Positions 1,980-16,656 of a stretch of 45,352 bases of DNA are shown here, piece by piece. A program made the translations under genes and the position numbers. The number at the start of each line of letters is the position of its first letter. The first letter of the stretch is position 1. This stretch comes from a virus. The stretch covers positions 1 through 45,352 of IMG/VR virus record IMGVR_UViG_3300043410_000355; one strand, written 5' to 3'. Below the pieces are notes generated by a model. The model was not told the origin of the DNA, searched no databases, and saw only the letters and a program-made list of their open reading frames with translations.

Positions 1980-4900
1980 TTACTCTCCTAGCTTAGATTT
2001 TAGTGTATCGACTTCGTTCTTCAACTCTTGGACAGCCTTAATTAGAACAGAAACCATTTGTGAGTAGTTGACAGACTTAGTACCTTCTTCATCGGCAGAA
2101 GTGAAGACGAACTCTGGGATAACGTTCTCAACTTCTTGAGCGATCAAACCAACGTCGTGTTTTCCATCAGCTTTCTTATCGTACTCTACAGAACGTAGTT
2201 TCATAACGTCTGCTAATCCATATTTAGAGTCAACGATATTTTCTTTAGCACGAACGTCAGAAACTTGCTGGAATGCGTTAGCCAAGACACCAGCGCTGTT
2301 ATATGTTTGTACCCAGCCAGTTTGTGTAGCGTATAGACCAACAGAATATGTAGCGCTATACCAACCTGCCTGACCATTACTTCTGAACCAACCGTCAGTA
2401 CCGTTAGTATAAGCATCTGCGCCTTGTAGGTACTTAGAGTAGTAAGTAGATGGGCTGTAACCAAGAGCAGTAGTAACGTCGCCAGATGTCAATGTAACAG
2501 CGTTCGCGCGACCGTTGAACGTGGTAACCATCGCGTTACCAAGATATGACCACTGAACGTCAGTACCGTTTGTAGTTAGAACGTATCCGTTCTGACCAGC
2601 AGACTGAGAAGGTAGTAGGTTAGTACGAGCACCCTGTGCAGTTGTTGCACCAGTACCACCAGAACTAATACCTAGTGCGCTTGATAATGTTAGAGAAGAT
2701 AGAGTTGTCGCACCAGCAGACAGAGTGCTGGATAGAGTAACTGCACCAGAAACACCTAGAGTAGAACCGAATGTAGATGCACCTGTATAGCTAGAAGTGC
2801 CAGTAACGGATAATGTGCCACCAACATTTGTATTACCACCAATACCAACACCACCAGTTACCACCAATGCACCAGTAGAAGTGTTAGAAGACGCAGTGTT
2901 GTTAGTGATAGATGTAGCACCAGTGACACCTAGTGTTCCACCAACAGTAGTATTAGAAGAAACTGCTAGAGTGCTGCTTAGAGTAGTCGCACCAGTTACG
3001 CCTAGTGTAGAACTTAAAGTAGTCGCACCAGTGACACCTACTGTTCCAGCGAAAGTAGCATTACCCGTATGGCTAGAAGTTCCTGTTACGTTTAGGTTAC
3101 CTGTAGCGTATAGAGTACCTAGACGCAATGTATCGTATGTTACAGTAGTAAAATCAATAACAGTTGTAGGTTCAGCAGTAACACCAGAGAATAGACGCCA
3201 TTCATTATTCGCTGCAGAACGAACGAAACCAGTGTGTTGATATGTTCCTGGGTTAATGTGACCAACGATACCAATATCTGAAGTATTACCGCTGTTACCA
3301 GTAGCCATATAGATCAATGGATCACTGATAGAAAGGTTAGTTGTGCTGATCTGTGTAGCAGTACCAGAGATGTTAAGGTTACCAGCAATATTTAAATCAC
3401 CGCCGACATAAGCTGTTCCACCAATACCAACACCACCAGTTACCACCAATGCACCAGAAGATGAATTAGTAGATGCAGTAGCATTAGAGATTGTAGTAAC
3501 ACCAGAAATACCAACTGTAGAACCGAATGTAGATGCACCAGTTACACCCAATGTACCAGAGAAAGTAGAGTTACCAGTATGGCTAGAAGTACCAGTTACC
3601 GCTAATGTGCCTGCAATAGCTACGTTGTTGTTAACAGTTGTAGTACCAGAAGAAGCACCGATACTCAAAGTAGTCGCAGCACCAGCAAAGTTAACTGTAG
3701 TAGCTACAGAGTTCCATAGGTTCTGTGTAGTATTAGAACCGACGACAGTTCCTGGGCGGATTGTAGCAGTAGCAGAAGTAGCGTTACCGAGTGTAAGTGT
3801 AGTTGCAGCACCGAATGCATTAACAGTTGTAGCTACAGTATCAAAAACTGACTGTGTAGTATTAGAACCGACAACAGTTCCTGGACGAACAGTTAATGTA
3901 GCAGAAGTAGCGTTACCTAAGTTAATCGCAGTTGCTGCACCGCCGATGTTTAGAGTAGTTGCTACTGTATTGTATAGGTTTTGAGTAGTTTGAGTACCGA
4001 CAACAGTTGGGTTACCGATAGTCAAAGTGCCGCTGTTTGCACCCATATTCAGAGTGGAAACATCGCCGAAGATGTTAGCAGTTGTAGCAGTAGTATTGAA
4101 TACTGTTACGTTAGTCTGGTTGGTTAGGATGTCACCGCCGTTGACAGAGATGTCACCGAAGATAGAGAATGTACCATCACAGACGATATTCTTAGCAACG
4201 CCGATACCGCCAGCGAAGATAACAGCACCATTGCTAGAAAGAGTTGAATCAGTGGTATTCGGGAATGTGGTAATACCAGTGAAAGTAGAAGTTCCACCAA
4301 CTGTTAGGTTATTTGTTACAGCGACTGTAGTGTTTCTTAGAGTCGCTGTACCAGAAGTAGCACCTAGAGTTAGAGCAGTAGCAGCACCGAAAGCATTAAC
4401 AGTAGTAGCTACAGTATTGAATACGTTCTGAGTAGCGTTAGAACCAACAACGGTAGCATTTCCTAAAGTTGTGATACCGATACCAGAAGAAGCGCCCAAG
4501 TTTATAGTGGAAGCAGAACCACCAACAGTAATCGTTGAACCACTATCAAGAACAGAGTTGATAGTTAGAACAGGAATATTATTGATTTTGTATGACTTGC
4601 CGCTAACTAGGTTGAAATATTCGGAAGAAGTCCAGTTAGTATTTGCACTATCCCAGTTAATAGTCTTATCTGTTGTGCCCTTTAGAGTAATACCACCACC
4701 GTCTGCAGTTGCATCAGTTGGAGTAGCAACCTTACCCATTTCAATGTTCTTATCTGCAACAACCAATGTTGTTGAGTTAATAGTCTCAGTTAGACCGTTA
4801 ACAGTTAGGTTACCAGTAACAACAACGTTATTATTAAGAGTGGTAGTACCAGATGTAGAACCGATTGAAAGAGCAGTTGCAGCACCGAATGCATTAACAG

Positions 4901-5693
4901 TCGTTGCATCAGTATTGAATACGTTTGCAGTAGTAGATGCAGTGATAATGTTACCAGTATCTACCGTAATGCTACCATTCAGGACTACGCTTTGTGCAGC
5001 AAAGTTACCGCTAGCATCTCGAGCAACAATGGTGCTATATGCATTATTCGGTGTAGAGTTTAGAGATAGTAGAGGGTTACCAGAAACACCATCACCGTTT
5101 GTTACAGAGATACCCTGTCCAGAAACAGTGATTGCTCTGCCAGTGTAAGTGCCCTTAGCAGTGCGAGTTAGTAAACCAGATACAGTGTTTTGAGCAACAC
5201 CGCGAAGTTCTACGCTACCCCATAGTTCGTATGTGATTGAGTCAACACCGATAGTAGTTGGAGCATCAGAAGTTTGACGCCACACAGTTTGCGCATTCGA
5301 TGTACCAGAAGCAACATAGATCAACTGATGTTTGTTCAGGTTATAGATCTTATCACTATCAAACGCTCTAGACCATGCAGTCATAGAAACGTTGTAGATA
5401 CCGTTCGCGTACTGAGAAGATTGTCCAATTACAAGGACACGGTCACCAACAGAAAGAGAGACACCATCAATGGTTTGTGTGCCATACAGAGTTAAGTTAG
5501 AAGTGGCTACAACCTTAACTGGGGTTCCCTTGTAAACAGAGTTACCCATAACCAATTCCATACCAGCTGGCGAAGAACCGTCGTGGATTCTAAGAACCAT
5601 ATTTGTGGTATCAAATGTTGGTTCTGCAATCGCACCAGTAAAGCTCTGGTGTTGGGTATATGTACCTCTTCTTAATTGAATTTGTGTTGGCAT
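1980..5693 (-). CDS. Long tail fibre with C-terminal S74 self-cleaving chaperone
   Basis: 1237 aa. The N-terminus (MPTQIQLRRGTYTQHQSFTG...EPTFDTTNMVLRIHDG) is a common virion-attachment start in marine fibres. Residues about 55-140 contain a domain (TIDGVSLSVGDRVLV...NGIYNV) also found in the 769-aa fibre. The shaft is highly repetitive, first with NVFNTVATTVNAFGAATALT-type units and then with STLGVTGATTLSSTLGVTGA-type units, as expected for trimeric beta-fibres. The last about 110 residues are an S74 intramolecular chaperone (SDVRAKENI...HDVGLIAQEVENVIPEF...VNYSQMVSVLIKAVQEL). In this family the domain trimerises the fibre and cleaves itself off at the Ser-Asp site, here around VSDVRAK. AAGGAA precedes the ATG. 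It probably determines receptor binding. Confidence 0.85.
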   Translation of the reverse strand: MPTQIQLRRGTYTQHQSFTGAIAEPTFDTTNMVLRIHDGSSPAGMELVMGNSVYKGTPVKVVATSNLTLYGTQTIDGVSLSVGDRVLVIGQSSQYANGIYNVSMTAWSRAFDSDKIYNLNKHQLIYVASGTSNAQTVWRQTSDAPTTIGVDSITYELWGSVELRGVAQNTVSGLLTRTAKGTYTGRAITVSGQGISVTNGDGVSGNPLLSLNSTPNNAYSTIVARDASGNFAAQSVVLNGSITVDTGNIITASTTANVFNTDATTVNAFGAATALSIGSTSGTTTLNNNVVVTGNLTVNGLTETINSTTLVVADKNIEMGKVATPTDATADGGGITLKGTTDKTINWDSANTNWTSSEYFNLVSGKSYKINNIPVLTINSVLDSGSTITVGGSASTINLGASSGIGITTLGNATVVGSNATQNVFNTVATTVNAFGAATALTLGATSGTATLRNTTVAVTNNLTVGGTSTFTGITTFPNTTDSTLSSNGAVIFAGGIGVAKNIVCDGTFSIFGDISVNGGDILTNQTNVTVFNTTATTANIFGDVSTLNMGANSGTLTIGNPTVVGTQTTQNLYNTVATTLNIGGAATAINLGNATSATLTVRPGTVVGSNTTQSVFDTVATTVNAFGAATTLTLGNATSATATIRPGTVVGSNTTQNLWNSVATTVNFAGAATTLSIGASSGTTTVNNNVAIAGTLAVTGTSSHTGNSTFSGTLGVTGASTFGSTVGISGVTTISNATASTNSSSGALVVTGGVGIGGTAYVGGDLNIAGNLNISGTATQISTTNLSISDPLIYMATGNSGNTSDIGIVGHINPGTYQHTGFVRSAANNEWRLFSGVTAEPTTVIDFTTVTYDTLRLGTLYATGNLNVTGTSSHTGNATFAGTVGVTGATTLSSTLGVTGATTLSSTLAVSSNTTVGGTLGVTGATSITNNTASSNTSTGALVVTGGVGIGGNTNVGGTLSVTGTSSYTGASTFGSTLGVSGAVTLSSTLSAGATTLSSLTLSSALGISSGGTGATTAQGARTNLLPSQSAGQNGYVLTTNGTDVQWSYLGNAMVTTFNGRANAVTLTSGDVTTALGYSPSTYYSKYLQGADAYTNGTDGWFRSNGQAGWYSATYSVGLYATQTGWVQTYNSAGVLANAFQQVSDVRAKENIVDSKYGLADVMKLRSVEYDKKADGKHDVGLIAQEVENVIPEFVFTSADEEGTKSVNYSQMVSVLIKAVQELKNEVDTLKSKLGE
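2969..2987 (-). repeat. Fibre shaft DNA repeat, copy 1 of 3
   Basis: The plus-strand 19-mer gagtgctgcttagagtagt encodes part of the shaft unit TTLSSTLxV. It recurs exactly at 6425-6443 and 7658-7676 inside the other large fibre gene. The surrounding 40-60 bases are also very similar. It is a plausible substrate for homologous recombination between the two fibre genes. Confidence 0.8.
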
Positions 5694-8645: not shown

Positions 8646-8897
8646 TTAAAATTCGCCGCCTTCCATATCCTGCGCGTCTAGCGTAGTTGTGGAAGTCCAT
8701 CTATTTGTTATTGTTCTATAAACTAAAATCGACCCATCTACCTTACCGTTGGTGGTAACATCAACGTCAGCGATGCTGCTCATTGATTCTACTACTGCTG
8801 GGTTTGACACATCAGATGAAGCAAGTGTAAGAACACCTTCAGAGACAGCGACCTGAAGAGCTTCGTCAGTTTGTACAATAGCGATTGTATCGGACAT
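8646..8897 (-). CDS. Small virion-associated protein, unknown
   Basis: 83 aa, acidic, rich in Ser/Thr/Val (MSDTIAIVQTDEALQVAVSE, then SILVYRTITNRWTSTTTLDA). The phrase 'SILVYRTITNRWTST' resembles the short motif near fibre N-termini where a line of the virion mesh is described ('G.ILVYD..TNRWV'), so I read it as a small fibre-connector protein. No signal peptide or membrane segment. It sits 1 base after the 111-aa gene and 12 bases before the 769-aa fibre, so it is probably co-transcribed with them from the late promoter at 9265-9272. The function is inferred from context only. Confidence 0.6.
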   Translation of the reverse strand: MSDTIAIVQTDEALQVAVSEGVLTLASSDVSNPAVVESMSSIADVDVTTNGKVDGSILVYRTITNRWTSTTTLDAQDMEGGEF

Positions 8898-9345: not shown

Positions 9346-10026
9346 ATGGAAAACATCCAACCACCACAGAATGGCACAGTAACTGTGGCAGAACAAGCAG
9401 AAAACCTACCTTCGCCACTAATTGGAGACGCGAAGCCAGAAGAATATAACTTTGACTACTCTCCAGTCGAAGAAACGTTTAATCGTCACCTATTCCCAAC
9501 ACTATTTGCGAGCTATAAGTTCACTGACTGGGAAAAGATCGCGCAACCATTGATCGACCTATCTAACGGTTGGGATGGTCCAAATGCGGGTGGCGATATT
9601 ATGGAACTAGACCATCCAGCAGTTAACCGTCTAAAAGAAATCATCTACGAAATCTGTGAAAACGTCCAGCTTTCTAAGGATGATAACGGTCGTACTCCAG
9701 TTATTGTTGGCTCCAACGTTATTTTCCAACAGAAGGGTGAACACATCCCTCTACATAACTACGAGTTTTCTACTCTAGTTTTCACTTTCGTTGCTAACGT
9801 TGGTCAAACTCCACCGATGACTTACTTCGCAGACCCACGCGGTGGTGTCCAAGCGATCCGTAAGATGGCTGCACAGAACCTAGTTGGTACTAGCTTCGGT
9901 ATCAGCAGCCGTGTTGGTGAAATCTATGTTTCTCCAGGCTACGCTCAACGTTATGTTGAGACTAACCTAGAATCAGAAACCCATGTGCTCGTTAACGTTC
10001 GTGTAAACTTTTTGATGATCACTTAA
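9346..10026 (+). CDS. 2OG-Fe(II)-oxygenase-like protein with degenerate metal site
   Basis: 226 aa. The region 120-226 follows the double-stranded beta-helix pattern of phage 2OG-Fe(II) oxygenases (2OG-FeII_Oxy_5 type): a strand ending KGEHIPLHNYEFSTLVFTF, then MTYFADPRGG with the usual 'DPR', then VGEIYVSPGYAQRYVETN and a final strand LVNVRVNF. In active members the first motif is HxH or HxD and the second contains another His (FPsyl-H-V). Here the first His is kept (LHNY), but the second ligand appears to be Tyr, and the distal His is Gln/Arg (GYAQRY). It may thus be catalytically dead, or use different ligands. It is the only plus-strand gene between two minus-strand blocks, has its own late promoter, and its 3' end overlaps the PP-loop gene tail to tail. 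Confidence 0.6.
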   Translation: MENIQPPQNGTVTVAEQAENLPSPLIGDAKPEEYNFDYSPVEETFNRHLFPTLFASYKFTDWEKIAQPLIDLSNGWDGPNAGGDIMELDHPAVNRLKEIIYEICENVQLSKDDNGRTPVIVGSNVIFQQKGEHIPLHNYEFSTLVFTFVANVGQTPPMTYFADPRGGVQAIRKMAAQNLVGTSFGISSRVGEIYVSPGYAQRYVETNLESETHVLVNVRVNFLMIT

Positions 10027-11076
10027 AATATGCTTGTTAACGTAGTGGACTGAATAGTCCTCTAGTAAAAATAACCAAGACGCAAGGGGGTTTCCTAAAG
10101 AGGAGACCCCCTTTGGTTTATTCCAAGCGTAATAACTATCTCCACTATACTCTTCGATCAACTCTCTCATAACCCAACGGTGAGTTAGAGGTTTACCGAC
10201 ATCTTTCGTGAATGGCTCTTTAGTTGTGATAACATAGCGCTGAAAGTCGTCAGTGTTATAGAAGTGATATTGGTTATCTTGCTGGTTCGTCGCGATTCGA
10301 CTAGAATACTCTGCTGTATACCAATCATAGTTGAAGATCAACCACCAACGGAGATCTCGGAGAGTCTCAATCTTTTTAGGGCTAGCTTTAATAGATGGAA
10401 GCAAGAACTCGTGTAGTTCATCATCGATACACTTAGTGTAGTCGATCAACGGATCATCGTTATTGAATTGGTGATGGAAGAAGGATACAGAGGTTTTAAT
10501 CTTACCAGTGATAAAGTCGTCCACTGGACCAAATAGTTGGTTACCGTAGTATCCAGTGACGAAGATGCTGTTTGGATCTCCATCGTCGAAGTCTCTTGTA
10601 GAAGAAACTTTGAAATTATACTTAACGCCAGAATTCTTAATCTTGGTGTCGAATAGATTACCAGATTCTAGAATAGAACTGTATGTTCCATATACAGTAA
10701 TCTGACTCGGGTCATTGACGTGTTTTAGTAGTGCAAAGAGTGCGAGTGTGCTATCGATACCACCACTCCAAACTACGCTGATCGGTTTATCTAAAGCAAC
10801 CAATTCTTTACAACGATCATCAACACACTCCCTGAAAGACTTATTAAACCCAGCATCAATCTTTGGGATCTGCAATAGTCCAGGTTTGATATTCAGGAAG
10901 TGGGGAGTTTGTCCTGTTCTGTCATAGACAGCGTTCAGGTTCATCTTATGTTTCTCAAAGAAGTTATACAACTCCTTATGGTTTGGAGCCAAATATTCTT
11001 CGATTGGTTCTATCTTGTTATTGATTAGGTCTAAAGAACGGATCAAACCAATGTTGTAGTATAGCAGTTGCTTCAT
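9973..11076 (-). CDS. PP-loop ATPase, asparagine-synthase-like (possible amide ligase)
   Basis: 367 aa. Residues 101-117 carry the PP-loop VVWSGGIDSTLALFALL, which binds ATP pyrophosphate in adenine-nucleotide alpha-hydrolases (asparagine synthetase, GMP synthetase, QueC, TilS). A second segment at 172-183 (FVTGYYGNQLFG) matches the 'TGEGADELFGG' region of asparagine synthetase B, with the acidic residues replaced. There is no N-terminal Cys glutaminase; the first about 100 residues are a short unrelated domain. The family activates a carboxylate with ATP for amide formation; lasso-peptide cyclases and beta-lactam synthetases are relatives. The substrate here is unknown. The gene follows a terminator hairpin, has GAGGA before its ATG, and its last 54 bases overlap the 3' end of the plus-strand gene. 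Confidence 0.7.
   Translation of the reverse strand: MKQLLYYNIGLIRSLDLINNKIEPIEEYLAPNHKELYNFFEKHKMNLNAVYDRTGQTPHFLNIKPGLLQIPKIDAGFNKSFRECVDDRCKELVALDKPISVVWSGGIDSTLALFALLKHVNDPSQITVYGTYSSILESGNLFDTKIKNSGVKYNFKVSSTRDFDDGDPNSIFVTGYYGNQLFGPVDDFITGKIKTSVSFFHHQFNNDDPLIDYTKCIDDELHEFLLPSIKASPKKIETLRDLRWWLIFNYDWYTAEYSSRIATNQQDNQYHFYNTDDFQRYVITTKEPFTKDVGKPLTHRWVMRELIEEYSGDSYYAWNKPKGVSSLGNPLASWLFLLEDYSVHYVNKHILSDHQKVYTNVNEHMGF
10084..10113 (+). terminator. Strong hairpin downstream of the 226-aa gene, inside the PP-loop ORF
   Basis: Arms 10084-10096 and 10101-10113 pair over 13 positions (GGGGGTTTCCT against AGGAGACCCCC plus two A-T pairs, one G-T) around loop AAAG. The plus strand then reads TTTGGTTTATT. 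It is a likely terminator for the late plus-strand transcript that starts at 9300. It lies within the coding part of the minus-strand PP-loop gene (around KPKGVSSLGNP), so one sequence serves both. Confidence 0.6.
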
Positions 11077-11133: not shown

Positions 11134-12081
11134 TTAGTGTAGTTGAATCTTCTGGACTAGACCAGGAGTGAAGTAGTCTGCAAACTTTTCGTAAACAGAA
11201 GCAGTAACTTCTTTGAACTTCTTCTGTTCTGTGTCGCTCATACGAACAACTTCAACACCCTTCTCTGCACATTCTGCTAGAATGTTTGGAATGTCAGCAA
11301 CAGATTCGCGACGCTCTGCGCGAGCAGCATTGAACGCTGCAGTAGCCATGATCTCACGAGTTTCTTCGTCGAACTGAGCCATGAAGTCTTTATTGACGAT
11401 GATAGAAGTCAAGAACAAGCTGTGAGCAGTATCGTTAACAACCTTGAAAGACTTGTACTGGTCAAGAGGGAAGATACGAACGTAAGTAGATTCGCCAGCA
11501 GAGATAACACCCTTGTCTGCGTACTCGTTCATTTCTTCTAGAGCGATGTGCTCTTTTGGCTCTGCGCCTAGTAGTTTGAATGTTTCAACAGCGACTGGAG
11601 AGCGAGATGTACGAACAGTCTGCCCCTTCCAAGAATCGACAGTGTCAGCACGGAAGTTCGCTGGAACAACACGGTAACCACCAGAGTAAGTGAAAGACAT
11701 AGCAGTGATATTGCTATTCTTAGAAACACCTGCTAGTAGTTCAGTACCAACTTCACCTTCCAAAACTGCGTCAGCGTGAGCGTGGTCGCGGAATAGGAAA
11801 GGTAGGTCTAGAGCGTGTAGATCTTTATTGTAGTCTGCAAGCCAAGTAGTGTAGATGTGGCTCATTTCGATCGCGCCAGTGTCGATCAATTGCATCAAGT
11901 CATTCTTGCTGACTTTCTTGCCAGCGTTATACTTGTTAGTGTAATCAGTCAAAGAAAGAACTTCGATGTCAAACTTGCCACCAGTTTTTTCGTTAACTTC
12001 TTTAGCGAAACGCTCGGCGACTTTTAGAAATAGACCGATTGGTTCGTGGGCGATGACCCATTTTACGTGTTTCTTTTCCAT
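11134..12081 (-). CDS. TRAP-transporter-type solute-binding protein (DctP family) without signal peptide
   Basis: 315 aa. Resembles DctP/TRAP periplasmic binding proteins along its length: KVAERFAKEVNEKTGGKFDI near the N-terminus, then SYSGGYRV-like 'TYSGGYRVVPANFRADTV', WKGQTVRTSRSPVAVETFKL with LGAEP (this segment holds the Arg that grips a carboxylate ligand in the family), and GVISAGESTYVRIFPL. Cellular members carry a signal peptide or lipobox and feed DctQ/DctM permeases. Here the protein starts MEKKHVKWVIAHEPIGLFLK with no hydrophobic leader, and no permease genes are nearby. It should stay in the cytoplasm or be packed with the virion. GGAG precedes the ATG; the 108-aa gene ends 12 bases upstream. 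It may be a free ligand-binding or scaffold protein. Confidence 0.8.
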   Translation of the reverse strand: MEKKHVKWVIAHEPIGLFLKVAERFAKEVNEKTGGKFDIEVLSLTDYTNKYNAGKKVSKNDLMQLIDTGAIEMSHIYTTWLADYNKDLHALDLPFLFRDHAHADAVLEGEVGTELLAGVSKNSNITAMSFTYSGGYRVVPANFRADTVDSWKGQTVRTSRSPVAVETFKLLGAEPKEHIALEEMNEYADKGVISAGESTYVRIFPLDQYKSFKVVNDTAHSLFLTSIIVNKDFMAQFDEETREIMATAAFNAARAERRESVADIPNILAECAEKGVEVVRMSDTEQKKFKEVTASVYEKFADYFTPGLVQKIQLH

Positions 12082-12093
12082 TTAGGATTCTCC

Positions 12094-12420
12094 TTATTTT
12101 CTTAAATACTTAAGATGTTCTGCACACTTAAGATCTAAACTCCACACCTCACCAGACTCTGTTACGTCTACTACAATAATCGGAAGTTTTAACCTTATGA
12201 TCCGTTCTTTATATTTATAAACAAACTCTTTTTGCTCCTGTGTTGCATTGAGCAAAAAATCTGGTATTTGGATGCTGACATTATTACTTTGGAACCCATT
12301 TTCCAGTGAGTTGTGCCAGAAAACATCAGCTAATGTTCTCTTATTTAGCTTCGAGTCGATTGAACCGTATCTAGGATAACGGTTCACATCCCAAATGTAA
12401 CAGTTTAGGAAAGGTTCCAT
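12094..12420 (-). CDS. Unknown 108-aa protein translationally coupled to the radical SAM gene
   Basis: 108 aa, starting MEPFLNCYIWDVNRYPRYGS. No family recognised. Its ATG overlaps the radical SAM stop as TAATG, so the two are almost certainly translated together and it is a candidate partner of the enzyme. The stretch WDVNRYPRYGSID...TLADVFWHNSLEN loosely recalls the non-cysteine parts of a SPASM domain (a residue pattern G-I-...-L-x-D-V-F/W-x-x-S), but it has only two cysteines, so it could not hold an iron-sulfur cluster by itself. The C-terminal half (LPIIVVDVTESGEVWSLDLK) looks like a beta-alpha-beta fold. A peptide-recognition role is possible but unsupported. Confidence 0.6.
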   Translation of the reverse strand: MEPFLNCYIWDVNRYPRYGSIDSKLNKRTLADVFWHNSLENGFQSNNVSIQIPDFLLNATQEQKEFVYKYKERIIRLKLPIIVVDVTESGEVWSLDLKCAEHLKYLRK

Positions 12421-13883
12421 TATCGAGGCTCTACTGGAACCTGTACGATAGGAATGTTAATTGGCTTGCGCACTTTCCAAGACTTAACGCCAGTCTTCAT
12501 ATACTCGATATCGATAACTGGGATGGAGGTAACACCGTCGAAACGGATACGTTCACCTTTGATCTCAGTCAATACTAGACCGTCTGTCATCTTAAACAGA
12601 GAAGCGCTAAGCATAGCTAGGTTATACCAGAAAAGGTTCTCACACGCCTGTTCCCAATACTGATCCTCTAGGAACAAACACGCACCCTGACACAACTGAA
12701 CGACTGGACAAGAAGGGCATTCCTTACGAGTAGACCAGTGGTAAGAGTTAGTTAAACGGATGTTGTCGAAATCCTCGATATTACCGATGTTATGTTTAGT
12801 TAGGGAAGACGTGTTCTGACAAGTGGTAACGTTACCCTTCATATCGATGGCAATGTTGTCTTCTCGATCCATACCACACTTCTGACCGACTGCTTCAGCA
12901 GGGCGTCCATAGACGATAGATTCAAAGAAAGACTTAACTTTCTGGTGAACCGTCCAGCTAAACTGATTCTTATTATCGATTGTTTCTTCGAACAATGAAT
13001 GAAGAATTTCCTTCTTCTCATCAGTTGTTTGAAGAGAGTGATTCATACCAGAGTCGTCATATGGAAGCATTAACTCTTCTGTAGTGACTTGAAGTTCGCG
13101 CTGGTCAACACCTGGATTCTCGAATCCCTGATGTGCCTTGTTTAGCTTCTTCTGGATGAAATCTCTAACTGCAGGGATTGAAACGTTCTCACGAGTCAAA
13201 ACGCAGTTGAATGTGAAGCGCATACTACCCATAGTCTTAAGGGCGTATACGATAGCATCTTTTGCAGTTGGTTCATCTAATGGGTCTGGACCACGATTTT
13301 GCGCATGGAGTGGACCATCGTGAGACATACCGATAGAAAAACCCATACGGTTGAACCAATCAACCTTATCCCTAGTCAATAGAGATCCGTTGGTAACCAT
13401 CATAAACTGAGCGTTAGGGTAAACCTTCTTAACCTTCTCAGCTAGTGGCTTTAGAGTTTTCCAGTAAACGAGTGGCTCTCCACCCCAGAACTCTAAACGG
13501 AATCGGTCATATGAATCGAACGCGAAGTTCTCTTTCATCTTGCGTACCAATTCCTCAGCGTCATCTGGACCGCCGACTGGATCGTGTGGTTGGTGGGCTT
13601 GATTGCAGTAAGAACACGCGTAGTTACACTTAAGACCCATCGTGATCTTAAGTGTAACAGGTTTCTTTGATTTCTTGCCGTGTAAGGCTGGGTCGTGTGG
13701 GTTGGTAATGTTTGCAGGTTCCCACACCTTAGCGTTCATTTGATATTGGAGACCCTTACTGATAAGATCAAGCGAGGGTCTCTCGTGGTTATGTTCCCAA
13801 TACATCTCAGATGTCATTGGGTCATAAACCATATTCAACGTCACATCATTAGCCCCTTGCAGGACTAGTGTAAATTTACTCAT
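12420..13883 (-). CDS. Radical SAM/SPASM protein (anSME-like maturase)
   Basis: 487 aa from the ATG at 13883, which has AAGGAT upstream; a TTG two codons earlier is less likely. The radical SAM motif is C86-NYA-C90-SY-C93 (CX3CX2C), which binds the [4Fe-4S] cluster that cleaves S-adenosylmethionine. WGGEP (133-137) and TNGS (164-167) are further core motifs. The C-terminal part is a complete SPASM domain: C336-X13-G-X4-C355, then C389-X2-C392-X5-C398-X3-C402 and C414, enough for two auxiliary clusters. This layout is that of peptide/protein maturases (sulfatase maturase anSME, sactipeptide and ranthipeptide enzymes, PqqE). Such enzymes modify Cys, Ser or neighbouring residues of a polypeptide. 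The likeliest substrate here is the Cys-rich protein two genes upstream (inference). Confidence 0.9.
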   Translation of the reverse strand: MSKFTLVLQGANDVTLNMVYDPMTSEMYWEHNHERPSLDLISKGLQYQMNAKVWEPANITNPHDPALHGKKSKKPVTLKITMGLKCNYACSYCNQAHQPHDPVGGPDDAEELVRKMKENFAFDSYDRFRLEFWGGEPLVYWKTLKPLAEKVKKVYPNAQFMMVTNGSLLTRDKVDWFNRMGFSIGMSHDGPLHAQNRGPDPLDEPTAKDAIVYALKTMGSMRFTFNCVLTRENVSIPAVRDFIQKKLNKAHQGFENPGVDQRELQVTTEELMLPYDDSGMNHSLQTTDEKKEILHSLFEETIDNKNQFSWTVHQKVKSFFESIVYGRPAEAVGQKCGMDREDNIAIDMKGNVTTCQNTSSLTKHNIGNIEDFDNIRLTNSYHWSTRKECPSCPVVQLCQGACLFLEDQYWEQACENLFWYNLAMLSASLFKMTDGLVLTEIKGERIRFDGVTSIPVIDIEYMKTGVKSWKVRKPINIPIVQVPVEPR

Positions 13884-13914
13884 TAACAATCCTTATAATA
13901 TAGAACAGATAATG

Positions 13915-13922: not shown

Positions 13923-15071
13923 TTACTCGATCTCGACCCATAGTTCAGCCCAAGAAGTGAACTCACCAAGATTCAATTTCAACTTGAAGTATTCACCAGA
14001 AATTAGACCGATAGTATTGACAATGACGCCTTCCACGCCACCAAAACCTTGAGCCATCTTATCAGCTGGGTGGTTGTGGTTTGCGATGAACTCTTGAACA
14101 TATACGTTAGGGTTCTGTGGATCATATTCGTTTGTTAGTCTAGTCTTAGAAGCGACACCGTTGACGCACTCTACATCGAATGTAACGAATGGTCTGCTAT
14201 TGATGATGTTGTGGATTCTAGAACCGAACATAACACGAAGAATGTGTTGGTCAGAAGCTGGTAGTTTAACATAAAAACGGTTACCGCTCATCTGAGTAGA
14301 TTGAGCGACTTGTAGTTCTGGGTTAATACCAGCAGTATTGACTGGTTGCTTCTGAGTTAGCTGTCTGAAGTTTTCTGCCTTAGCAGTTGGCTTAACTGTT
14401 GGATATGCAGAAGATACGATCTTACCATTAGCATCTAGGACTTCGAACGTCACCATAACTCTAACGTAAGTATTACACCAGAATTCATATTCTTTTGGTG
14501 TAACTGCAGTGACCTGTTGATTACCGACTTCTAGAACAGTGTCCATCAAGTCGAATTGATAGTCTTCAACAAAAAACTGAAGAGTAGATCCTTCGAACCC
14601 GAGAGACTTAAAGAAACTATCAATGACAAATAGTGGAGACAACGGAGTATTTGCGTTATAACGATACTCGTTCAAGTTATAGTAGATCTTTTCGTGAGAG
14701 TTGCTACCATCAACATATTGTTTAGAGACTTCATATACGTCGATAGGATCGCTGATGGTCTTGGTATCATCATTGTACTCGATAATCCACTTGTAGTTAT
14801 CAGTCTTTTGAACGAAGTCTGCTTCTGTGAATTCACGAGTAGCAACAACCTTTAGATCACCAGTTGTGTGTGGATCTCTTAGGATAGTATCTGTGCCTTC
14901 TGGAAGAGATTCATCTAGATCTGGGTTTGGTGGAATGACTTCTTCTACTTTAACGCTGATAGTTTTAGTATCAGCGTTAAAACCCATAGTTACACGGTGA
15001 CCTGTATCGTGCCCGTAGGTATCTTCAGTACCTTCGTTACCTTTAATTACAGTCTTAAATAATTTTAACAT
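13923..15071 (-). CDS. Unknown 382-aa virion-like protein in the modification cassette
   Basis: 382 aa; begins MLKLFKTVIKGNEGTEDTYG. I recognise no family. The composition is soluble and beta-rich with many short strands (RVTMGFNADTKTISVKVEEV, MSGNRFYVKLPASDQHILRV), no membrane segment or signal peptide, and a C-terminus GEYFKLKLNLGEFTSWAELW that resembles lectin- or jelly-roll-type virion decoration proteins. It contains two cysteines only. It stands between the Cys-rich gene (17 bases upstream) and the radical SAM gene (39 bases downstream), with GAGGATCC before its ATG. It could be a structural carrier of the Cys-rich protein or an independent decoration protein. Confidence 0.65.
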   Translation of the reverse strand: MLKLFKTVIKGNEGTEDTYGHDTGHRVTMGFNADTKTISVKVEEVIPPNPDLDESLPEGTDTILRDPHTTGDLKVVATREFTEADFVQKTDNYKWIIEYNDDTKTISDPIDVYEVSKQYVDGSNSHEKIYYNLNEYRYNANTPLSPLFVIDSFFKSLGFEGSTLQFFVEDYQFDLMDTVLEVGNQQVTAVTPKEYEFWCNTYVRVMVTFEVLDANGKIVSSAYPTVKPTAKAENFRQLTQKQPVNTAGINPELQVAQSTQMSGNRFYVKLPASDQHILRVMFGSRIHNIINSRPFVTFDVECVNGVASKTRLTNEYDPQNPNVYVQEFIANHNHPADKMAQGFGGVEGVIVNTIGLISGEYFKLKLNLGEFTSWAELWVEIE

Positions 15072-15088: not shown

Positions 15089-15475
15089 TTAGCAGTTACA
15101 GTTACATGCGCAGTTACAGTTACATGCGCAGTTACAGTTACAGTTAGTTCTATACCATTGGAAACCACCCATTGTGTTATCTTGGTTATCGTGACGGATA
15201 CCGTCTGTAGAACCAGAAACTGCAGCACCGATAGAAGTGTTACGGAAGATGTTAATACGTCTATCAGTAGTTGCACCCCAACCTAAGTCGGCAGCATCAC
15301 AGTTACCGCAGGCACAGTTACAGTTACCGTTACATGCGTTACATGCGCAGTTCCATCCGCAGTTAGCGTTTGGTTCGGTATAGCCTCTGTTACCTGCATC
15401 GTAGTAGTTCCAGAATAAGTTTACAACGTCTGTACCGTCAGAACGTCTAAAACCTGTTGCACCGTAATATGCCAT
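15089..15475 (-). CDS. Cysteine-repeat protein, candidate substrate of the radical SAM enzyme
   Basis: 128 aa with 17 cysteines in two clusters. Residues 1-37 (MAYYGATGFRRSDGTDVVNL then FWNYYDAGNRGYTEPNA) form a cysteine-free head. Cluster 1 (39-59) reads NCGWNCACNACNGNCNCACG with a final NC. Residues 60-110 are again cysteine-free, and cluster 2 (111-128) is the C-terminus NCNCNCACNCNCACNCNC. Every cysteine is preceded by Asn or Ala. There is no signal peptide. It lies between an S74 fibre gene (2 bases upstream) and the 382-aa gene, with GGAGA before its ATG, so it is expressed with virion proteins. Possible roles: substrate for thioether or other radical SAM chemistry, a metal-binding tip, or a disulfide-locked beta stack. 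Confidence 0.8.
   Translation of the reverse strand: MAYYGATGFRRSDGTDVVNLFWNYYDAGNRGYTEPNANCGWNCACNACNGNCNCACGNCDAADLGWGATTDRRINIFRNTSIGAAVSGSTDGIRHDNQDNTMGGFQWYRTNCNCNCACNCNCACNCNC
15092..15145 (-). repeat. 18-bp tandem repeat encoding the Asn/Ala-Cys tail
   Basis: On the minus strand, after one leading AACTGT, the unit AACTGTAACTGCGCATGT is repeated 2.67 times without a mismatch up to the stop codon. It encodes the NC/AC tail of the Cys-rich protein. Perfect identity at the DNA level suggests recent expansion by slippage. Confidence 0.9.
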
Positions 15476-15477
15476 GT

Positions 15478-16656
15478 TTAATTCTCCAGTTTAATTAGTC
15501 GAGCGTTTAGCTCTTCAATAGTCTTTTGTTGTTCCTTAATCGCTTCAACTAACAAACCGACCATGTTAGAGTAAGAAACGGTCTTATAACCAGTCTCAGT
15601 AGTTCCAACGACCTGCGGTAGAACAAGTTCAACTTCCTGAGCGATTAAACCGATTTCATCGTGTCCATCTCTGGTATATGAAACGCCTCTTAGACCATTA
15701 ACGACGCCCACAGCATTATTTAGTGTTTGGACGTTTGCCTTTAATCTTGCATCAGAAGACTGAGTGAATGTATCAGCAACAACAGCTTTGAATGTGTTTG
15801 TTGTACCAGTCCAAGTGTTATTACCACTTAGAGATGGGACATCAGATCCTAGATCGATAGTTGGATTACCAGCAACTGCATCACCGTTAGTGATAACAAC
15901 GCGAGTTGATGTTCCAACTAGAGAACGAATAACCGCAGTACCATCACCAGTTCTAGTGTATAAACCCTTATCGGTCGTTCCAGTAAGACCAGAGATAGCA
16001 GTTAGGTTAGCGTTATATGCTTGTACGTCTGTACCGATCGCTAGACCGAGTGTAGTTCTTGCGTTAGAAGCAGCTGCAGAAGCAGCCAAACCGCGCATAT
16101 AAGAACTAACAGTATAAGTAGCAGCAGTGCCGTCACCAGTAAAATATGGTGCTGCATCTGCGGCAGATGTCACAGTAGCTAGAGCAGCTAGTTCCTTATC
16201 ATAAGCCTGTACGTCTGTACCAATAACTAGACCTAGAGTCGAGCGAGCACCAGCAGCAGTAGTTGCGCCAGTACCACCAGAACCGATGGCTAGGGAAGTA
16301 GTTAGTGTGATAGAACCGCTAGTGATAGCGGCAACACCAGAGAACGTACCAGAAAATGTAGCTGCAGTAATATTGTTAGCTGCAAAGTTACCAGAACCGT
16401 CACGGCGAACGATAGTGTTAATCGTGTTTGCAGTGTCTTGATTGTAACCGTCTAACAGGTCAGCATCTAATCCAGAGCCAGAACCATCGACAGTGATAAG
16501 TTTAGCTAGAACGTCGGCTGCAGTGTAAGAAGCTGCAGTCAAACCAGTTTGGAGTGCAGTACTGATATTACTAAAGTTAGCATCAACTTCGGCATTCGTT
16601 AAAGGGCTACCTTTGGTAGCTCTTAACGTGATTGAAGGTGCTGAAATGTTTGCCAT
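15478..16656 (-). CDS. Tail fibre with C-terminal S74 self-cleaving chaperone
   Basis: 392 aa. The N-terminus (MANISAPSITLRATKGSPLT followed by NAEVDANFSNIS) is a widespread fibre-attachment motif. The shaft is weakly repetitive (two copies of ARSTLGLVIGTDVQAYDKEL-like units at about 135 and 198). The last about 95 residues form an S74 chaperone (SSDARLKANVQTL...HDEIGLIAQEVELVLPQVVG...VSYSNMVGLLVEAIKEQ), paralogous to that of the 1237-aa fibre. In the family this domain trimerises the fibre, then cleaves itself off at Ser-Asp. AAAGGATCC precedes the ATG. It sits between the DUF4815 tail protein and the Cys-rich gene, and it may be the fibre that carries the Cys-rich protein (inference from adjacency). 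Confidence 0.85.
   Translation of the reverse strand: MANISAPSITLRATKGSPLTNAEVDANFSNISTALQTGLTAASYTAADVLAKLITVDGSGSGLDADLLDGYNQDTANTINTIVRRDGSGNFAANNITAATFSGTFSGVAAITSGSITLTTSLAIGSGGTGATTAAGARSTLGLVIGTDVQAYDKELAALATVTSAADAAPYFTGDGTAATYTVSSYMRGLAASAAASNARTTLGLAIGTDVQAYNANLTAISGLTGTTDKGLYTRTGDGTAVIRSLVGTSTRVVITNGDAVAGNPTIDLGSDVPSLSGNNTWTGTTNTFKAVVADTFTQSSDARLKANVQTLNNAVGVVNGLRGVSYTRDGHDEIGLIAQEVELVLPQVVGTTETGYKTVSYSNMVGLLVEAIKEQQKTIEELNARLIKLEN

Follow-up and report, generated by a model that had tools for sequence, protein, structure and literature searches.

The locus described here raises the question of why a small phage protein should end in a strict alternation of cysteine with asparagine or alanine, and which gene product might act on such a sequence. 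The window, i.e. the whole stretch of DNA analyzed (45,352 nucleotides), is a 45-kb IMG/VR fragment of a marine phage with a T4-type neck gene. Its counterpart in marine T4-like phages is the cluster described there as responsible for host recognition, situated ahead of the neck gene gp14 (PMC7029224).

A cysteine-alternating tail at the probable fibre terminus

The ORF at 15089..15475 on the minus strand encodes a protein of 128 amino acids (aa) with 17 cysteines, located at residues 39, 43, 45, 48, 52, 54, 56 and 59 and at alternate residues from 112 to 128. An N-terminal part is followed by the central cluster (C39-C59), a linker and a C-terminal tail of nine (N/A)C units ending in NCNCNCACNCNCACNCNC (NC tail). 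A preliminary description of the sequence had reported this size and cysteine count, with Asn or Ala before every Cys and no exception, and a reading of the ORF bears this out for the window protein. The rule is looser among relatives, where the residue preceding Cys in 122 distinct repeats is N (75%), A (14%) or D (6%), and rarely Q, V, T, S or R. The regularity is nevertheless well above chance, as isolated Cys in ORFs of related loci are preceded by N in about 7.8% and by A in about 9.4% of cases. The repeat stops exactly at the C-terminus in 56 of the 122.

Relatives of the NC-tail protein were found in 22 IMG/VR loci in the viral scan, and all keep the pattern. Across 17 aligned homologues the nine tail cysteines are invariant, as are most of the central ones, with the preceding residue varying among N, A and rarely D. 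The repeat codons differ synonymously among homologues (AAC/AAT, TGT/TGC, GCA/GCT/GCG) with a constant protein pattern, and selection therefore acts at the protein level. No match to the protein was found among Pfam, NCBIfam or PHROG families or by tblastn against INPHARED. An AlphaFold model based on the 17-sequence alignment had a pLDDT of 35 and was discarded.

The NC-tail ORF begins 2 bp past the stop codon of a tail fibre gene (15478..16656, minus strand; 392 aa, with PHROG tail fibre matches). The preliminary description had called this neighbour a self-cleaving fibre, in agreement with a C-terminal Peptidase_S74 self-cleaving chaperone domain (44.7 bits vs. a cut-off of 22), and had regarded the NC-tail protein as tail- or fibre-borne. 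The latter view gains support from homologous fibres at the same locus (including L080, L065, L405, L376, L412 and L414) that lack S74 and end in an NC tail of their own; over residues 1-279 the window fibre shares 55-72% identity with these. In a set of contigs anchored on the fibre, and among those with enough DNA, 22 have a fibre that ends in its own NC tail, endings such as NCQCNC (L457) and NCRCNC (L494) included, and 7 have an S74 fibre with the gene for the NC protein immediately after it; no fibre of this set combines S74 with a fused NC tail. Since relatives fuse window-type fibre residues 1-279 directly to an NC tail, homology and arrangement place the NC tail at the end of a tail fibre.

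A further arrangement is seen in the cultured Achromobacter phage JWF (L037:6679-8127), whose tail fibre (PJWF_00028) has NCNCDCNCNCS immediately ahead of the Hint-type sequence CFPAGT, and in six other loci (L150, L295, L298, L302, L401 and L423) where the repeat likewise directly precedes Hint-like sequence. Because the repeat abuts Hint, self-cleavage would leave it as the C-terminus. In seven loci (L050, L395, L404, L409, L413, L428 and L435) another conserved C-terminal domain, IC.KL...AD..YG, comes after the NC motif and may likewise be removable or act as a chaperone; L404 and L413 have degenerate NC motifs ahead of a CTKLF domain. Elsewhere in the window, a second S74 domain is found in a fibre of 1237 aa encoded at positions 1980-5693, which also has an Mtd_N (major tropism determinant N-terminal) domain.

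The radical SAM enzyme and its linkage to the repeat

Two genes downstream of the NC ORF lies a gene for a radical SAM (rSAM)/SPASM enzyme of 489 aa (12420..13889, minus strand; listed start TTG, with an ATG two codons in). It has a CX3CX2C motif (C88/C92/C95) and the seven-cysteine SPASM signature CX9-15GX4C - CX2CX5CX3C - C (C338, G352, C357, C391, C394, C400, C404, C416); the CX3CX2C motif and all seven SPASM cysteines are invariant in 42 of 42 diverse rSAM sequences. Pfam Radical_SAM is matched at 41.9 bits (cut-off 29.5) and TIGR04085 at 37.6 bits (cut-off 27). The best NCBIfam relatives are maturases of peptides or proteins, namely PapB (78.1 bits), DynA (69), CcpM (65) and anSME (62.9), all scoring below the curated equivalog cut-offs, e.g. 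340 for PapB and 349.45 for anSME. The AlphaFold2 model (pLDDT 90.8, pTM 0.90), which includes an N-terminal three-strand region, the N-terminal 80 residues being a possible RRE, is closest in the PDB to the thioether-forming CteB (5why/5wgg), followed by TigE, anSMEcpe, ChlB and SuiB. By sequence, the order among proteins of known structure is TigE (8vpo), anSME and CteB. By sequence and predicted fold the enzyme is thus classed as a SPASM-type peptide maturase, and because the curated cut-offs are not reached we place the system among rSAM/SPASM maturation systems without assigning it to a named family.

In all window-family loci that are long enough the gene order is the same: S74 fibre, NC protein, p13923, rSAM, p12094, DctP and PP-loop protein. 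The p13923 protein (13923..15071, minus strand; 382 aa) occupies a conserved position, termed f1, between the NC protein and the rSAM, and its C-terminal part is related to family f1 (hhalign probability 78, E 1.8e-5). Accessory genes downstream of the rSAM, all on the minus strand, encode p12094 (12094..12420; 108 aa), a solute-binding protein of DctP/TRAP type in which no signal peptide is evident (11134..12081; 148.9 bits, 75-91% identity among phage relatives) and a PP-loop (SGGIDS) protein with weak similarity to QueC/asparagine synthase (9973..11076). A 2OG-Fe(II) oxygenase (phrog_81; 9346..10026), a possible accessory modifier, is encoded on the opposite, plus strand.

A DNA scan for NCNCNCNC gave at least 120 viral loci, and the repeat ends an ORF in 90 of those listed. 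With an HMM built from the window rSAM family and that of phage JWF, the enzyme was detected at 74 of 120 NC-pattern loci among the matches listed and at none of 120 control loci obtained with NGNGNGNG (Fisher 5e-30). For C-terminal repeats, again among the matches listed, an rSAM gene was present at the locus in 71 of 90 cases and in the full record in 12 more, three of these being weaker finds (E 1e-44 to 1e-54). The other seven records are fragments of 7.7-23.7 kb, and the full-record search found no rSAM in 50 control records.

To take relatedness into account, an unrelated neighbour gene (8646-8897) served as a neutral anchor for 43 loci having 8 kb or more upstream. Of these, 28 have both NC tail and rSAM, 14 have neither and one (L583) has the rSAM only (Fisher p 2e-10 with L583 counted as an exception), some of the contigs being near-identical viruses, so that independent events are fewer than loci. 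The L583 fibre ends in ...FINCRNCNC, itself a short NC tail. In the fibre-anchored set the rSAM is present in all NC-bearing contigs and absent from the two without NC (L476, L485). The preliminary description had proposed beforehand that NC repeats be searched for a nearby radical SAM gene, and the association it anticipated emerged in both designs (83 of 90 records among the matches listed vs. none of 120 controls; 28 concordant positive and 14 concordant negative loci), homologues not being regularly found without such a neighbour.

In the reverse direction, a scan from the rSAM alignment found (N/D/A/S/G/H)C repeats in 58 of 80 bacterial-genome loci and 55 of 77 viral loci vs. 3 of 120 controls; NC repeat and rSAM occur together in more than 100 phage and prophage loci. 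The coupling recurs in siphophage-like and prophage loci whose rSAMs are only about 30-46% identical to the window enzyme, which supports a real connection between repeat and enzyme; the rSAM of JWF shares 37% identity with that of the window. Two loci (L449, L444) have an NC protein that the repeat pattern missed. Counting against the explanation we favour below, four of five inspected Bacteriovorax-type rSAM loci are without an xC-repeat ORF. The rSAMs of Campylobacter phages are distant partial matches.

The commonest neighbours in 87 non-redundant rSAM loci are the NC-tailed fibre family, f1 (at 55 of the 87 loci, with none at 120 controls) and 2OG-type oxygenases (at 43 of the 87, with 4 at the 120 controls), the last class pooling four families of which f2 alone matches a 2OG family (PF13759, phrog_81), while f4, f27 and f28 were assigned by eye from HxD...H-like patterns and may be wrong. 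All 28 neutral-anchor loci with NC tail and rSAM have f1/p13923, while the 14 with neither lack it; the DctP, p12094 and PP-loop genes co-occur in 19 of the 28 and none of the 14, and the 2OG-type families are found in 7 of the 28 only. The core of the module is the NC protein, f1/p13923 and the rSAM; the other genes are accessory. In five loci (L147, L384, L139, L447 and L449) genes for fatty-acid-desaturase-like and HxD-type oxygenase-like proteins lie between f1 and the rSAM.

Proposed modification of the tip and competing readings

The preliminary description had proposed that the tails are crosslinked or otherwise modified after translation. On balance we favour an explanation of this kind, in which the NC protein is a fibre tip modified by the nearby rSAM, most likely through thioether crosslinks. 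The 128-aa protein would form the distal part of the tail fibre, or a tip protein sitting on the fibre, and its (Asn/Ala)Cys repeats would be the substrate of the rSAM/SPASM enzyme. That the enzyme acts on the repeat is highly probable. It most likely links Cys sulfurs to carbons of the adjacent Asn, Ala or Asp, giving thioethers of sactionine or ranthionine type; the alternating, 1:1 supply of sulfur donors and carbon acceptors would then yield a rigid, non-reducible tip. Asn and Ala are thioether acceptors in sactipeptides, e.g. thurincin H and ruminococcin C. This product is favoured because CteB is the closest fold, Cys is paired 1:1 with N, A or D and sactipeptides use Asn and Ala as acceptors, but we give thioethers themselves about an even chance, and the usual substrates of rSAM thioether enzymes are small peptides with a leader, which counts against them. 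We infer that the NC-tail protein is present in virions; the modified tip would be assembled into the particle and contact the host surface, and a role in host adsorption is reasonably likely. The f1/p13923 protein is linked to the enzyme as tightly as the NC protein and might act as another partner, beside the NC protein or in its place.

The most serious competitor shares the substrate and differs in the chemistry. The rSAM may modify the NC repeats without crosslinking them, by formylglycine formation as in anSME, by epimerisation of alternate residues or by another C-H change, possibly with hydroxylation of Asn by the 2OG oxygenases. Anaerobic sulfatase maturases convert Cys to formylglycine, and D/L-epimerised peptides, too, show a strictly alternating pattern. 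Consistent with such chemistry, anSMEcpe is among the best relatives in sequence and fold, the JWF enzyme carries a sulfatase maturase annotation and 2OG-type oxygenases are frequent at rSAM loci, as given above. However, the anSME model score falls far below its cut-off, the CxPxR/CxAxR sulfatase motif is absent from the window NC protein on inspection, the closest fold is CteB rather than anSME or the epimerase EpeE, and the 2OG-type families are sparse in the neutral-anchor set. We consider non-crosslinking chemistry rather unlikely, if worth keeping in mind.

Another reading makes the tail a metal-thiolate or Fe-S column running axially through a trimeric tip of the fibre, with the rSAM being an accessory or serving another protein. 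Thiolate ligands are classically arranged as CxC. In the needle of T4 gp37, His residues bind seven colinear irons (PMC6957217), and alternate-residue Cys would align like these iron-binding His if the tip were a trimeric beta structure. Such a column would nonetheless leave the near-perfect rSAM linkage and the conserved non-ligand N/A position unexplained, and HxH is not enriched near the tails (2/122 vs. a background of 3.5%) and does not occur in the window NC protein; we regard this reading as improbable.

Still less probable is that f1/p13923 or another fibre protein is the true rSAM substrate, the NC tail forming ordinary disulfides. The presence of f1/p13923 in every NC-tailed locus of the neutral-anchor set, and in none of the 14 others, is compatible with this. 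Yet the f1 sequences inspected are without a repeated or Cys-rich motif, p13923-type proteins have diverged far more (26-66% identity to the window protein, compared with 71-93% for the rSAM), and a disulfide net does not require N or A before every Cys. Finally, although the last 54 coding bases are close to a hexamer repeat prone to slippage, a functionless low-complexity artefact beside a coincidental rSAM gene can be dismissed: coincidence is refuted by the linkage statistics and recurrence in diverse phages with concordant rSAMs, and slippage by codons that vary synonymously while the protein pattern stays the same, as well as by the same N/A rule in the non-repetitive central cluster.

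Relation to known systems and wider occurrence

The thioether systems of CteB/SCIFF and PapB (ranthipeptides, sactipeptides) resemble the window system in the CX3CX2C and seven-Cys SPASM motifs of the enzyme, in its CteB-like predicted fold and best NCBIfam match to PapB, and in a Cys-rich candidate substrate encoded nearby. The candidate substrate here, however, is an (N/A)C repeat of a phage fibre tip instead of a small secreted peptide that carries a leader, and the enzyme has an f1 partner and fibre genes as neighbours; with respect to small precursors of PapB/SCIFF type, the candidate is the tail of a 128-aa protein without an NCBIfam match. As for anSME, the window rSAM is related to it in sequence and fold and the JWF homologue is annotated as such, but the score (62.9 bits vs. 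349) and the lack of CxPxR/CxAxR in the candidate substrate set the two apart.

Among fibre tips, the nearest structural analogy for an ordered tip is the needle of T4 gp37, in which the irons are colinear (PMC6957217). This needle and the gp38 tip adhesins of the T4 superfamily likewise present an ordered distal fibre C-terminus or a protein encoded right after the fibre gene, whereas the window protein has Cys instead of His, no HxH and an rSAM partner, and no sequence relation to either was found. Self-cleaving S74 and Hint C-termini are shared with the window fibre (S74) and with JWF and six further loci (Hint-like sequence after the NC repeat), but these are chaperone or processing domains that are removed, and the NC tail apparently stays in place as the end. 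The host-recognition cluster of pelagimyophages is a locus of the same kind, a fibre region ahead of gp14, and the paper describing it mentions "radical SAM cassettes" in passing; the word cysteine is absent from its main text, which does not tie the rSAM to NC-tail proteins (PMC7029224).

A search of the open-access literature found no account of NC tails or of rSAM-modified fibres. To our knowledge, modification of a virion protein by a radical SAM enzyme has not been described, and the open-access literature searched contained no such case. The parts of the system are of known kinds; their combination and the substrate class appear to be new. It is thus conceivable, at somewhat less than even likelihood, that tailed phages and prophages of many lineages share an undescribed module that places a thioether ladder on the C-terminal tips of fibres, consisting of an NC-tailed fibre or tip protein, f1 and an rSAM/SPASM enzyme, often with 2OG oxygenases or the DctP/PP-loop trio. 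Chemistry of the RiPP kind would then build part of a virion rather than a peptide natural product. If so, chemically altered fibre tips would be a new layer of host recognition, and tail, Hint or S74 domain and maturase would form a modular route to crosslinked protein tips. The large family now annotated just as "radical SAM" (phrog_1802 and relatives) would gain a substrate signature, with C-terminal (N/D/A)C repeats predicting an rSAM gene nearby as a search rule.

Some loci depart from the window arrangement. In L081, L096, L103, L135 and L152 one rSAM gene lies downstream of three successive genes for small proteins, which are about 92-167 aa long and have an NC repeat each at the end. 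More than one rSAM-like gene per cluster is found in L045, L086 and L110, where an HTH...DDY motif precedes the NC-tail protein and the rSAMs form a divergent subgroup. Discrete PqqD-like proteins were found in non-phage relatives alone, with matches above the Pfam cut-off in L346 and L335 and just under it in L324. In L324 (9348-9962) the PqqD-like protein is followed by a 62-aa peptide ending in SAGACACACGGPCY, beside a non-phage rSAM relative; this looks like a bacterial RiPP cluster that has yet to be described, with an AC repeat as its core.
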